NCBI GenBank assembly: GCA_021297815.1
Contig: JAJTGK010000043.1
Coordinates: 9,202-43,476, forward strand
DNA: 34,275 bases
DNA from: Planctomycetaceae bacterium
Lineage (GTDB): Bacteria > Planctomycetota > Phycisphaerae > Phycisphaerales > SM1A02
Direction of reading: 5' to 3'
Position numbers and translations under genes: made by a program. Within the stretch, counting starts at the first letter, position 1; each line of letters begins with the position of its first letter. This document shows, piece by piece, positions 13,188 through 19,263 of this stretch. The notes under the pieces were generated by a model. It saw nothing but the letters and a program-made list of their open reading frames with translations, was not told the origin of the DNA and searched no databases.

Positions 13188-13220
13188 ATCGGCGGCCCTG
13201 AACGGGCCGCCGATTTCTTT
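13188..13220 (+). terminator. Intrinsic terminator after rpsG
   Basis: ATCGGCGGCCC-TGAAC-GGGCCGCCGAT followed by TTCTTTG. Confidence 0.8.
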
Positions 13221-13267
13221 GCTCGCTTTGGTGCTCGGGGCGCGTGGGTGCTTGCGGCGGTGCGGAT

Positions 13268-13500
13268 CGTCGGGCTTCGCCCGACGCATCGAGCCGAGAC
13301 TGGGGGATCTTGCGACCCAGTGGCTTCGCACTGGGCACCCGTCGCGCGGAGCGCGACGGCGTCGTGCCGAGGTCGGAGGATCGGCATGAGGACCACCGAA
13401 ACCGCCGCCGGCCCTTGGCCGGCGGGTGCCCAGTGCGGAGCCACTGGGTCGCCCCGTTTCAGAATCTCGCGAGGGCGCGCGCGCGGAGCGCGCGGTCCTC
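13268..13500. repeat. Nested palindrome array (REP/BIME-like or structured RNA)
   Basis: 30-bp inverted repeat with one mismatch: GCGACCCAGTGGCTTCGCACTGGGCACCCG (13312-13341) versus CGGGTGCCCAGTGCGGAGCCACTGGGTCGC (13423-13452). Each arm is itself a CCCAGTG/CACTGGG hairpin; further hairpins lie inside and beside it. Confidence 0.75.
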
Positions 13501-13581
13501 CGCCATCCCGATCACCCGGCCCCGTCGGGAACCTCGGACCTCAGGATCCGAGATACTTGGGAGATATCCCCATCTAGACCT

Positions 13582-13609
13582 TTGTGCGTCCGCGCCCGAC
13601 CAGTACCGT
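13582..13609 (+). promoter_or_regulatory. Candidate promoter of the first H-NOX gene (TTGTGC-N16-TACCGT)
   Basis: TTGTGC 13582-13587, 16-bp spacer, TACCGT 13604-13609, 6 nt before ATG 13616. Confidence 0.45.
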
Positions 13610-13615
13610 GCCTGC

Positions 13616-14188
13616 ATGTACGGACTCATCAACCGCGCCGTCGAGGACCTCGTGCGCAGCAAGTTCGGTGCCGACGCCTGGCACCGCATCCGCACCCGCG
13701 CGGGCCTCCCCGACGAGCCGTTCGTCACAATGCAGAAGTACGACGACAAGTCGACCTACGACCTCGTCGGAGCCGCAAGCGCTGAGCTCGGTGCGCCGGC
13801 AGAGGCGATCCTTGAGGAGTTCGGCTTTTTCTGGACGGTTTACAGCGCCAACGCGGGCTACGGCGAGTTGCTGAAGTCGGTCGGCCGAACGCTGCCCGAG
13901 TTCCTCGGCAACCTCGACCAGATGCACGCGCGCATCAAGATCTCGTTTCCCGAGCTCGACCCGCCGAGCTTCGCCGTGTTCGACCGGACTCCGTCGAGCC
14001 TGAAGCTGCGCTACTACTCCGACCGCGCGGGCCTCGCGCCGCTTGTCCGCGGCATGCTCCGCGGCCTCGGCGACCGCTTCATGGTCGACATCGAGATGAC
14101 CAACCATCGCGTCGAGGACAACGGCCGCGCGCACGATCTGTTCGATGTCTCATGGAAGGAACGAGCAGGCGCACCGTCGCGCGCCTGA
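13616..14188 (+). CDS. H-NOX (HNOB) heme nitric oxide/oxygen-binding domain protein, copy 1
   Basis: MYGLINRAVEDLVRSKFGADAWHRIRTRAG; NLDQMHARIKISFPEL (proximal His region); LKLRYYSDRAGL (YxSxR heme-propionate motif). Confidence 0.9.
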   Translation: MYGLINRAVEDLVRSKFGADAWHRIRTRAGLPDEPFVTMQKYDDKSTYDLVGAASAELGAPAEAILEEFGFFWTVYSANAGYGELLKSVGRTLPEFLGNLDQMHARIKISFPELDPPSFAVFDRTPSSLKLRYYSDRAGLAPLVRGMLRGLGDRFMVDIEMTNHRVEDNGRAHDLFDVSWKERAGAPSRA

Positions 14189-14235
14189 GGCGCCTGAGAC
14201 ACCGTCTCCGCCAAGTTCGATACGCTACCCCGACC

Positions 14236-14802
14236 ATGTACGGACTCATCAACAAGGCCGTCGAGGGACTCGTCCGCAGCAAGTTCGGCGACGATGCGTG
14301 GAATCGCATCCGCACGCGCGCGGGCCTGCCCGACGAGCCCTTCGTCTCGATGGAGCAGTACGACGACAAGACGACCTATGACCTCGTGGGCGCCGCGAGC
14401 GTGGAGCTTGGTGCGCCCGCCGAGGCGATCCTCGAGGAGTTCGGCAGGTTCTGGACCGTCTACACCGCGGAGGCGGGCTACGGCGAACTGATGCGCAGCG
14501 CGGGCCACAACCTGCCCGATTTCCTGCGCAACCTCGACCAGCTGCACACCCGCGTGCGCCTCTCGTTCCCGCATCTCAAGCCGCCGAGCTTCTCGGTGTC
14601 GAACGAGAAGGCCGCAAGCCTCGACCTGCACTACTACTCCGACCGCCCAGGTCTCGCGCCGCTCGTGGTCGGGCTGCTCAAGGGCCTGGCCGAACGGTTC
14701 TCGGTGCAGGTCACCGTATCGTGGCGGCGGGTCGATGGCGTCGAGCGCCCGCATGACCTGTTCCATGTCTCGTGGACATCGAAGGGTGGCGGGCCCTCGT
14801 GA
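14236..14802 (+). CDS. H-NOX (HNOB) heme-binding domain protein, copy 2
   Basis: MYGLINKAVEGLVRSKFGDDAWNRIRTRAG; NLDQLHTRVRLSFPHL; LDLHYYSDRPGL (YxSxR); close paralogue of copy 1. Confidence 0.9.
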   Translation: MYGLINKAVEGLVRSKFGDDAWNRIRTRAGLPDEPFVSMEQYDDKTTYDLVGAASVELGAPAEAILEEFGRFWTVYTAEAGYGELMRSAGHNLPDFLRNLDQLHTRVRLSFPHLKPPSFSVSNEKAASLDLHYYSDRPGLAPLVVGLLKGLAERFSVQVTVSWRRVDGVERPHDLFHVSWTSKGGGPS

Positions 14803-16547
14803 GCGGCGTTCCGCGTCAGCCATCCGATCGATCCGGGGCCCGGCAGGGCGGTCCGTTCGGGCCGCCCGATTCGTCGGACCTGCCGCTTGTCCGCGCGCTC
14901 TTCCCGTTCTGCTTCGCGGTCGACGCGAGCATGCGCGTGGTGATGACGGGCGCGCGCTGGGACCGCTACACCTCGGAGCTTCGCCCAGGCGTCGGCTTCT
15001 TCGAGGTCTTTTCGATCGACCGCCCCGTCGGCGTGCAAGACGCGGCGGGCCTCGCCGCACGCACCGCCGATGTGTTTCTGCTCACGCTGAACTCGCGCCC
15101 CGCATTCAGGCTGCGCGGCCAGTTCGTGCCGCGCCGCGCACCCGATGGCAGCGCGCAGTACCTCTTCGTCGGTGGTCCGTGGCTCACGCGCATCGCCGAC
15201 ATGCATGCGCTCGATCTCGAGCTCGACGACTTCCCCCCGCATGATCCGCGCGGCGACTTCCTCGTGCTGCTCCAGACGCAGGAGTCGACGCTCGGCGACC
15301 TGAAGGCGCTGACCACGCGCCTGCGCTCGACCGCGTCGGCGCTCGAGGCGCGCACACGCGAGACGGAGCGCGAGATGGAGCTGCGCGCGCGACTCGAGGC
15401 GCAGCTGCGCCAGAGCCAGAAGATGGAGGCCGTCGGCCGCCTCGCGGGCGGCATCGCGCACGACTTCAACAACATCCTGATGGCGATCCACGGCTATGCG
15501 GCGCTCTCGCTGTCGCGGCTTTCGCCGGCGGATCCGACCAGGGGCTGGATCGAGCAGATCCGCGCCGCCGCCGACCGCGCCGCCGCGCTGACGCGGCAGC
15601 TGCTCGCCTTCAGCCGCCAGCAGGTGCTGCGGCCCGCGGCGATCGACCTCGCGAAGGAGATCCGCGAGATCGAGACGCTGCTGCGGCCGCTCGTCGGCGA
15701 GCGGGTCGACCTGCGCGTGACGGTCGCGGAGGAGCTCGGCTACGCGTGGGCCGACGCGAACGCGCTGCAGCAGATCGTGATGAACCTCGCGATCAACGCG
15801 CGCGACGCGATGCCCGACGGCGGGGTCGTCGAGATCGGCGTGCGGATCCACGAGGGTTCGCCGAGCGGCTCGCTGCGCGAGGGCGGGTTCATCGAGCTCG
15901 CCGTGCGCGACACGGGCACTGGCATGACCGAGGAGACGAAGGCGCGCCTCTTCGAGCCGTTCTTCACCACCAAGGAAGTCGGCAAGGGCACGGGCCTCGG
16001 GCTCGCCACCGTGTACGGGCTCGTCGAGCAATGCGGCGGCGCGATCGAGGTCGAGACCGAGCTTGGCAAGGGTTCGACCTTCCGCGTGCTGCTGCCGCGT
16101 GTCGAGCGCGAGGCGCCCGCCGATGCCCGCGCCACCGCGTCGACCGAGGGCGGGCGCGGCGAGCGCATCCTGCTTGTCGAGGACGAGCCGCTGGTGCGTC
16201 GCGTGCTCGACCAGATCCTCACGCGCGCGGGGTACCAGGTGGTGTCGAGCGGCGATTCGGGCGAGGCGCTGGCGATCGCGCAGAAGGAGCGCGCGTTCGA
16301 CGCGCTCGTCACCGATGTCGTGATGCCTGGAATGCTCGGACCGCAGCTTGCGCGCAAGGTCGAGGAGTCGTGCGGCGCGATGCCGACGGTCTTCATGTCG
16401 GGCCACACCGACGACGAGTCGCTGCGCAAGGGCACGCTCGCCGCGCACCAGCGCTTCATGCCGAAGCCGTTCACGCCGACCGAGCTGCGCGAGATCGTGC
16501 GCGAGCTCTTGGCGTCGAGCAAGGGCATGCGCGCGCCCGTGATCTGA
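14772..16547 (+). CDS. HNOBA-coiled-coil-histidine kinase-receiver hybrid sensor protein
   Basis: [26 protein letters not shown]...[59 protein letters not shown]. His[20 protein letters not shown]. HATPase: [34 protein letters not shown]...[12 protein letters not shown]...FMSGH...PKPF. Start overlaps copy 2 by 31 nt; no TM segment seen. Confidence 0.88.
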
Positions 16548-16656: not shown

Positions 16657-18020
16657 ATGCGTCGAATCTCGGAAGGAAAGGATCGTGCCGTCGCGTTGAC
16701 GGCGCTTGCTTTGGTGTTCGTGCGATGGGAAGCGTTGTGCGGCGTGGCTTGGTGCGGCGTGGCTTGGTGTGGCGTGGCTTGGTGTGGCGTGGCTTGGTGT
16801 GGCATGGTGCTGCGGCGCGTGGGCGGGTGCGGCGCACGCGGGTGTGCAGGCGGAGGGCTTGGTGCCAGCGGTCGGTCTCGGGCGTGGCGCGATCTCGCGC
16901 GTCCTGCCTGCGGCGCTGCGTGGCGACGCCGGCTCGTCGTGTGCATGCGGCGAATCGCCCCACCGAATCGCCGAGTCATGCGCGCGGGAAGCCGCGGCGC
17001 TGCTCGATTCGGCCGGCTGGTGCGAAGCGCCGCTGCAGTCGTTGGTCGTGCCGTCGCCCGATGCGCATGCGCCGCCATGCATCCTCGCCGCGCTTGCCTG
17101 CGAGGTAGGGCCGCGCGCGCGTGGTGCATGGCGGTCGCTCCGTCTCCAAGGCGGCTGCCAGGGAAACGCGTGGTCGGAACACGCGCGCGACGAGGTGCTC
17201 GACGCCGCGTACGCGCTCCTCGTGCTCGACGCGCTGCTTGCGGCGGTCGATGCCCATGGGGTGCTTGCGGCGGGCGAGGTCGCGCAGCTTCTCTCGCGCC
17301 TCCCTGCGATGGTTCCGCACCCAGGCTCGGTGCCGCGCGTGCGTGAGTCGCTGTCGCGGCTCGAGCGGTCGGGCATGCTGCGCGGGCGCAGGCTCGACCT
17401 GGCGCGCGTCGAGGCCGAGGCGCTCGCAGGCGCCATCGCGGTTGCCGAGATCTGGCGCGATCGATACGCATGCGCGCTCGACCGCATCGCGCGGCTCGCC
17501 GCGACTTCCGAAGGAAAGGCGCTCGTCGAAGTCCATCGCGCCGTCGCACTGCTCGAGGCAGGCTGGCTGGGCCTCGAGGAAGGCGTTGCGGCGCCGAGGG
17601 GATCGCGAGCGGGCGCGTTGCGCGGCGACCCTGTCGCGGTCGCCATCGCGAGATCCGCGACCGACGGCTGCCGACGCGACTGGCTCGCCACCGTGCTCGT
17701 GCGGCTGCGACCGTTCGAGTGCTCGCAGGTGCGCGGCGCTTCGGTCGGAGCCGAACCTGGCGAGGGCCGCGATCCTTCAGGGCGGCTCCATCTGAGCGAG
17801 GTTCGCGGCGGGCTCGCCGCCGAGCGGATCGACCGATGGCGCGCCGCGTGCGGGCTTCGCCGAGACGCCGCGGGGGGTTGGACAGGTGTGCCGCTGCGCC
17901 CGACACCCCGTGCGCCGCGCCTTCGCGATGCTCCATTCGGCATCAAGCCGCTCGGCCGTGCCGCAGCGATGCACGATGTCGCGAACGACGCGTCTGCGCG
18001 AGGCCGCTACCCTCCGCGTC
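16657..18020 (+). pseudogene. Hypothetical ORF, probably frame-disrupted (pseudogene, frameshifted gene or assembly error)
   Basis: Best start is ATG 16657 (SD GGGAGGGAAGG), but coding-like high-GC3 sequence (RDEVLDAAYALLVLDALLAAVDAHGVLAAGEVAQLLSRLPAMV...) is in the next frame, which has no ATG start and no stop before 19189. End coordinate is approximate. Confidence 0.4.
16741..16809 (+). repeat. 15-bp tandem repeat GGCGTGGCTTGGTGY, four units plus partial
   Basis: 16741-16755, 16756-16770, 16771-16785, 16786-16800, then GGCATGGTG; only one variable base among the four full units. Confidence 0.92.
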
Positions 18021-19115
18021 ATGACGCCGTTCGCCGACCGCTACCAGCGACAGATGCGGCTTCCGCGCTTCGGCGCCGATGCCCAGCGCAGGCTGCGCGC
18101 GTCGCGGGTGCTCGTCGCGGGCTGCGGTGCGCTCGGCACGATGGCGTGCGAGCAGCTGTGCCGCGCGGGAGTCGGCGCCATCGACATTGTCGACCGCGAT
18201 GTGGTCGAGCCCTCGAACCTGCAGCGGCAGACGCTCTTCACCGAGCAGGACGCGCTCCGCCGCGAGCCGAAGGCCGAGGCCGCCAAGGCCAGGCTCCGGC
18301 AGGTCAACGCCGAGTGCACCGTGCGCGCGTTCGTCGACGACCTGCACGCGGGCAGCATGCTGCGCTACGCGAGCGCGGCGGACATCATCCTCGACTGTCT
18401 CGACAACTTCGAGACGCGGTACCTGCTGAACGATGGTGCGGTCGAGCTGGGCCTGCCCCTCGTCTACGCGGGTGCGGTGGGGATGCGAGGCATGGCTGCG
18501 GCGCTCCTCCCCATCACCGGAGCGTGCCGCGCGGGCGCGCGCGTCGTCTACGGCGATGCGCGAGCGACTCCATGCCTCCGCTGCCTGGCTCCCGAACCGC
18601 CGATGCCTGGCGAGGCCGAGACCTGCGAGACGGTCGGCGTGCTCGGGCCGGCGGTGGGCATCGCCGCGTCGATCGAGGCGGGTCTTGCGATCAGGCTGCT
18701 TGCGGAAGGCGCCGATGCGGTGCCCGCGTCGATGGTGCGCTTCGACCTCGCGTCACTCGAGTTCCGCGATGCATCCATCGCATCGGCGCGCGACGCGTCA
18801 TGCCCGTGCTGCGCGCTCGGCGAGCGACGGTTCCTTCGAGCCGTGGAATCGCCGTGGAGGGTCCTTTGCGGCCGAAACGCCGTGGAACTGAGGTTGGCGA
18901 CCGCGACCGATGCCGCTGGTCTCGACCGTATCGCCGCACGGCTCGGCGCGGGCAGCGAGCGCGGCGCGCGGTCGGTGCGGGGGTCGCTCGATCCGAGCCT
19001 GGGCGCGACCTCGGTGCAGGTCCTGCTCGCGGAAGGCGGCACGCTCGTCCTCGTCGAAGGCACGACCGACCCCGAGCGCGCGCGCTCGGCCGTGGCCGCC
19101 GCGGTCGGGCTATGA
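18021..19115 (+). CDS. ThiF/MoeB/HesA-family E1-like adenylyltransferase
   Basis: RYQRQMRLPRFGADAQRRLRASRVLVAGCGALGTMACEQLCRAGVGAIDIVDRDVVEPSNLQRQTLFTEQDA; DCLDNFETRYLLND; zinc ligands CLRC and CPCC. Confidence 0.9.
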   Translation: MTPFADRYQRQMRLPRFGADAQRRLRASRVLVAGCGALGTMACEQLCRAGVGAIDIVDRDVVEPSNLQRQTLFTEQDALRREPKAEAAKARLRQVNAECTVRAFVDDLHAGSMLRYASAADIILDCLDNFETRYLLNDGAVELGLPLVYAGAVGMRGMAAALLPITGACRAGARVVYGDARATPCLRCLAPEPPMPGEAETCETVGVLGPAVGIAASIEAGLAIRLLAEGADAVPASMVRFDLASLEFRDASIASARDASCPCCALGERRFLRAVESPWRVLCGRNAVELRLATATDAAGLDRIAARLGAGSERGARSVRGSLDPSLGATSVQVLLAEGGTLVLVEGTTDPERARSAVAAAVGL

Positions 19116-19263
19116 CGGCAGACGGGTGCGAGTGTGCTTCCCGAACACCGTTCCCGCTTGGCGGGATGGTCCTGAAAGCTACACTCTGATGGCGGTTCTC
19201 CCTTGACAGAGGGGAACAGCCGCCCGATCCGGGGCGTTTCAACACGGGAAGGAGTCCGTTGCC

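Follow-up and report, generated by a model that had tools for sequence, protein, structure and literature searches.

The window (the whole stretch of 34,275 nucleotides analysed) carries, at 13616 to 16547 on the forward strand, two stand-alone H-NOX genes followed by the gene for a hybrid histidine kinase with an HNOBA domain. We consider it probable that this locus forms the NO-responsive input of a two-component system (phosphorelay), as a module of the H-NOX/HNOBA-kinase kind. Its observed basis is the gene set, the domains, the catalytic and heme-ligand residues, the fold match of the kinase N-terminus, the conserved linkage, and a gene overlap. An earlier note on this DNA, made from the letters alone, had read the region as two stand-alone H-NOX proteins and an HNOBA-coiled-coil-HisKA-HATPase-REC kinase; given the Pfam domains, the intact residues, and the lack of a membrane helix, that observation was right. 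The HMM search that it had proposed matched HNOB, HNOBA, HisKA, HATPase_c, and Response_reg, every domain over its Pfam cut-off.

Two H-NOX proteins of the NO type

H-NOX1 (13616 to 14188, forward strand) and H-NOX2 (14236 to 14802, forward strand) both start with ATG and are predicted to be stand-alone heme NO sensors of 190 and 188 amino acids. The HNOB profile (PF07700, cut-off 25.5 bits) is covered over its full length (1-162/163) in both, with 155.6 bits (E = 1.4e-45) for H-NOX1 and 173.5 bits (E = 4.2e-51) for H-NOX2. The two proteins are identical in 128 of 190 aligned columns, and each has the proximal His104 together with the Y133-x-S135-x-R137 motif; the proximal His was kept in all sixty-nine of the sGC-type H-NOX proteins that we compared.

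Matches to the Nostoc H-NOX Alr2278 are strong (E = 1.6e-55 for H-NOX1 and 5.5e-57 for H-NOX2), followed by sGC beta structures in the PDB at E-values from 1e-25 to 1e-33. A further structure described as an NO-binding heme-dependent sensor protein (4u99), which we take to be the Shewanella H-NOX, matches both proteins far more weakly (1e-4 to 1e-5). Nostoc H-NOX and sGC beta are NO-type H-NOX proteins, and as the nearest structures they argue against O2 or CO in place of NO as the physiological ligand, a reading that we think very improbable; the nitric oxide synthase (NOS) encoded in the same genome, described below, also argues against it. Members of the H-NOX family do bind NO, CO, and, in some cases, O2 (PMC8738867), but the distal-pocket Tyr that O2-binding H-NOX proteins require (PMC8738867) is absent from helix G of both H-NOX1 and H-NOX2, which places neither in the O2-binding subgroup. 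The locus had been described as NO/O2-responsive, and because helix G has no tyrosine in either protein, the O2 half of that description is unlikely.

A hybrid kinase with an sGC-like N-terminus

The kinase gene (14799 to 16547, forward strand) is predicted to encode a cytosolic protein of 582 amino acids starting at GTG 14799. The earlier note had used GTG 14772, which gives an overlap of 31 nt with H-NOX2. The downstream GTG overlaps the H-NOX2 stop codon by 4 nt as GTGA, and an in-frame NTG is found at exactly this position in 8/8 scorable loci of the genus, the window included. From this conservation, GTG 14799 is most likely the better start and the overlap is probably 4 nt.

All domains of the kinase lie on the forward strand. 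The HNOBA (H-NOXA/PAS) domain at 14889 to 15380 matches PF07701 in two stretches (E = 1.3e-14; 54.7 bits against a cut-off of 23.4). It leads into a long signalling helix or coiled coil at 15246 to 15425, predicted as a single unbroken helix (model residues 130-189), and then into HisKA at 15435 to 15620 (PF00512, E = 1.2e-8), with the phospho-acceptor His221 in an AHDFNN motif at 15459-15461. HATPase_c at 15753 to 16100 (PF02518, E = 2.1e-23) has its N, G1, F, and G2 boxes intact, and the protein ends in a receiver at 16167 to 16502 (PF00072, E = 3.3e-21) with the acceptor Asp506 at 16314-16316. The residues needed in a hybrid kinase (His221, N329, D371, G397, Asp506, Ser534, and Lys556) are all present. 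As had been noted from the sequence, HisKA, HATPase, and REC stand in place of a cyclase; the Pfam matches of H-NOX1, H-NOX2, and the kinase include no class III cyclase catalytic domain. The kinase also has no transmembrane-like segment (maximum 19-residue Kyte-Doolittle value 1.46), in agreement with the cytosolic location proposed for it.

The N-terminus had been likened to the H-NOXA/PAS region and coiled coil of sGC. It aligns with residues 302-391 of human sGC beta-1, which span the end of the PAS domain and the coiled coil (whole-sequence E = 5e-5). A better alignment (E = 3e-6) is to 2P04/2P08, structures of the H-NOXA domain from a histidine kinase of Nostoc punctiforme. The structure prediction suggested in the earlier note was made for the kinase N-terminus alone: an AlphaFold2 model of 190 residues from this region, made on an alignment of fifty-eight sequences, has a mean pLDDT of 92.2 and consists of a PAS-like domain followed by a single helix of sixty residues. 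In a Foldseek search the best matches of this model were human sGC chains (sGC beta, E = 1e-9), and the 2P04/2P08 chains were found with target TM-scores of 0.79-0.84. By alignment and by predicted fold, the resemblance of the kinase N-terminus to sGC is real.

Genomic surroundings

The source genome, from a freshwater planctomycete, is a metagenome-assembled genome (MAG) of 3.03 Mb in 180 contigs. It is 88 per cent complete, so absences from it are weak evidence. In the H-NOX scan its nearest named relatives were planctomycete MAGs from lakes and ponds, several bearing the name Phycisphaerales or Phycisphaera. The site of the operon between rpsG and thiF was the same in 10/10 genus genomes examined, and the block plsX-rnhA-rpsL-rpsG-[H-NOX]-kinase-ORF-thiF-ybjN-dinB is kept in those ten except where the fetched stretch or the contig ends.

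A terminator-like hairpin at 13188 to 13214 (forward strand), with an 11-pair stem and a T-rich tail, follows rpsG and would mark the boundary between ribosomal genes and H-NOX operon; it comes from a consensus scan only, which is not evidence of function. Because of this candidate terminator, a promoter for the operon itself probably lies within 13215-13615. A search for sigma-70-like promoters 5′ of H-NOX1 found none, and no RNA family reached its gathering score in the window.

Two repeats flank the operon. Upstream of H-NOX1, 13312-13452 holds a 50-nt inverted repeat pair built on the palindrome CCCAGTGGCTYCGCACTGGGC, which has about fifty copies in the genome, several in close pairs, against zero for the reversed control pattern. 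From this copy pattern we class the element as a REP/BIME-like interspersed repeat. Just downstream of the kinase, 16737-16807 holds 4.7 copies of the 15-nt tandem repeat GTGTGGCGTGGCTTG, near the start of a long open frame (16706-19189) whose part at 16706-17878 has no Pfam match.

Distribution and gene order

A scan of 85,462 species with an H-NOX alignment found 487 relatives; we analysed the best 80. In seventy-nine of these best 80 loci an HNOBA gene adjoins the H-NOX gene; the remaining locus is cut by a contig end. These loci come from Planctomycetota, Cyanobacteriota, Verrucomicrobiota, Acidobacteriota, Chloroflexota, Myxococcota, Pseudomonadota, and Actinomycetota, some of the MAG names being unreliable. 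Because linkage is this regular across many phyla, an H-NOX gene beside an HNOBA gene is an ordinary bacterial arrangement, already known, with parts common to animal sGC, and not a split sGC. The earlier note had called the locus a split guanylate cyclase. What stands of that claim is that modules shared with sGC are distributed over three polypeptides; the locus has no cyclase and is not special, being like the others in the best 80, and the label reads history from the animal end. The window also has the defining feature of a Nostoc-type operon, an H-NOX gene adjacent to and, via the GTGA overlap, translationally close to an HNOBA kinase.

H-NOX was present in 15/16 genomes of the genus, and the family of the window accounts for sixty-nine of the seventy-seven H-NOX-bearing genomes sampled in the order. 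Among the papers searched, none names H-NOX together with Planctomycetes. The range of the known module thus extends to Phycisphaerales, with one family of the order commonly carrying it; what is less usual at the window is a doubled sensor and an NOS in the same genome.

Gene order and kinase type vary elsewhere. Two loci of genus g162 (L084 and L094) have the reversed order, with the HNOBA kinase before H-NOX. In other genera of the family (L090, L103, and L111) HNOBA is joined to kinases of the HWE/HisKA_2 type, not HisKA, and in two cyanobacterial loci (L173 and L180) HNOBA-GAF-PAS-GGDEF-EAL proteins adjoin H-NOX.

Duplication of H-NOX

Tandem H-NOX pairs were found at twelve of the forty-six loci of the order with an sGC-type H-NOX and HNOBA, and in two of the fifteen H-NOX-bearing genomes of the genus. 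The upstream copies of the genus's two tandem loci form one clade (support 99/96), and the upstream copy at L082 has the longest branch of all copies in the genus (0.40). A single ancestral tandem duplication was rejected, as the upstream copies of the order do not form one clade (AU P = 6e-9). Separate duplications are indicated at least for the window's genus, g158, and g161/g166, and in g184, too, the two copies group together. By these comparisons, tandem H-NOX arose several times independently, with the heme His always kept. We read the tandem copies as a lineage-specific duplication that added another receptor of this kind.

Alternatively, the copies may have split roles as a subfunctionalised receptor pair, for example one as NO sensor and the other as scaffold, second-affinity sensor, or heme-independent redox sensor; the kinase dimer would then hold a hetero-pair of H-NOX proteins, comparable to alpha and beta in animal sGC. 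The frequency and repeated origin of tandem pairs, the clade of upstream copies in the genus with its longer L082 branch, and the concentration of H-NOX1/H-NOX2 differences in residues 77-155 are in favor of this reading, but both copies retain every heme ligand checked, unlike sGC alpha, which has lost its heme, and the distal Tyr is missing equally from both. Moreover, since so few of the genus's H-NOX-bearing genomes have the pair, it is not needed for function. We regard split roles as doubtful and keep to the reading of two receptors of one kind.

The identity of H-NOX1 and H-NOX2 is 87 per cent over residues 1-76 and 61 per cent over residues 77-155, whereas H-NOX1 and the single-copy H-NOX of another locus (L075) show even identity (74-79 per cent). 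A possible explanation of this split is partial gene conversion, affecting the 5′ half. Third-position identity across 13616-14700 also falls near residue 76, from about 0.70 to 0.58. At a different locus (L104, genome G385), the HNOBA kinase gene precedes two H-NOX genes; one of these has a very long branch (1.18) but keeps the heme His.

A possible source of NO

The same genome encodes an NOS oxygenase outside the window (G000:C113:14432-15487; locus L227:5962-7626), unlinked to the H-NOX operon. It scores 420 bits against PF02898, its best structure match is 2FLQ (E = 4e-90), and it has the RCIGR motif with the heme-thiolate Cys. NOS genes occur in 6/16 genomes of the genus and in 6/301 genomes sampled in the order. 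Copies in three other genus MAGs are 61-66 per cent identical to this one, which argues against contamination. Copper nitrite reductase was rejected as an NO source, as no NirK match was found in this 88 per cent complete genome.

NOS was present in 2/2 genus genomes with tandem H-NOX and 4/14 of the others, and a tie between the two was rejected as not significant (Fisher P = 0.125). Across the order, NOS was found in 4/77 genomes with H-NOX and 2/224 without (P = 0.04); this association rests on one genus and so is not independent evidence. All that follows from the NOS is that an endogenous NO circuit is possible. It seems improbable that the genome holds an animal-like circuit in which its own NOS would feed a doubled sGC-type H-NOX/HNOBA receptor and a phosphorelay, with non-equivalent H-NOX copies on one kinase dimer. 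One question that PMC6195638 treats as unresolved is whether cells that make NO with a bacterial NOS have a receptor dedicated to it, and an NOS in the same genome offers a way to ask this.

Signal transfer and output

Heme and NO binding, docking, the sign of regulation, the HPt step, and the output are the predicted parts of the module. Either or both of the cytosolic H-NOX proteins would hold heme through His104 and bind NO on the ferrous iron, and liganded and unliganded H-NOX would dock differently onto the HNOBA (PAS) domains of the dimeric kinase. As happens in animal sGC, a parallel coiled coil would relay the resulting change, and the altered HNOBA/coiled-coil geometry would set the balance of autophosphorylation and phosphatase activity at His221. 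Phosphate from His221 would pass to Asp506 in the receiver of the kinase itself. An unlinked response regulator would take it up from there, probably with an HPt protein in between; a REC-HD-GYP c-di-GMP phosphodiesterase is the most plausible regulator for this role.

The operon in the window has no output gene beside it; the earlier note had likewise seen no adjacent DNA-binding partner. In three genera of the same family (g161, g164, and g166) the kinase is followed by a REC gene, and 3/3 of those checked encode REC-HD-GYP proteins. The window's genome has a single HD_5 match, in a REC-GAF-HD-GYP protein (G000:C178) that is a candidate partner of the kinase; its GAF domain is absent from the neighboring regulators of the related genera. 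Control of histidine kinases and c-di-GMP enzymes by H-NOX is established elsewhere (PMC8846402, PMC8738867). Because of the regulators of related genera, the genome's own REC-GAF-HD-GYP protein, and this known link, c-di-GMP is our best guess for the output, by analogy across genera.

A serious rival is that the kinase steers transcription or the cell cycle through an HPt protein and a DNA-binding regulator, in a CckA-like manner, and not c-di-GMP. It arises because the kinase core (the AHDFNN HisKA and the C-terminal REC) scores best against the NCBIfam CckA models, at 363 bits, but this is far under the equivalog cut-off of 1000, so the likeness is of the core only and the kinase was rejected as CckA. 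With REC-HD-GYP genes in the operon of several related genera also speaking against a CckA-like route, we find it the less likely of the two and keep c-di-GMP as the preferred output.

Comparison with known systems

The closest parallel is in Nostoc, where a stand-alone sGC-type H-NOX gene is likewise followed by a soluble HNOBA-coiled-coil-HisKA-HATPase kinase (locus L210, N. punctiforme NIES-2108). The Nostoc kinase has no C-terminal REC and is paired with a single H-NOX, whereas the window has a hybrid kinase and a doubled H-NOX; other cyanobacterial versions (L174 and L208) do include REC domains, as in the window. Structures have been solved for the Nostoc H-NOX (Alr2278) and for the H-NOXA domain of the kinase, the latter listed for N. 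punctiforme Npun02000820 as PDB 2P04/2P08 (Ma et al. 2008, as reported in PMC2828450 and PMC8196705).

Shewanella HnoX-HnoK resembles the window in that a stand-alone H-NOX partners a histidine kinase. To our knowledge, HnoK has not been described as carrying HNOBA. Judging by the weak 4u99 match, the Shewanella H-NOX probably belongs to a more distant branch than those of the window. Its system has a c-di-GMP output through the HnoB phosphodiesterase (PMC8846402), which for the window is only proposed.

In animal sGC the signal likewise runs from H-NOX through HNOBA/PAS to the coiled coil, and there are matches to the window in both sequence and fold. Animal sGC differs in having one polypeptide per subunit and a cyclase end, where the window has separate H-NOX proteins and a histidine kinase with REC as output. 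The natural series of loci with a single H-NOX, a tandem pair, a swapped order, or a REC-HD-GYP neighbor is suited to studying how H-NOX signals through the HNOBA/coiled-coil relay, which is one that animal sGC still uses.
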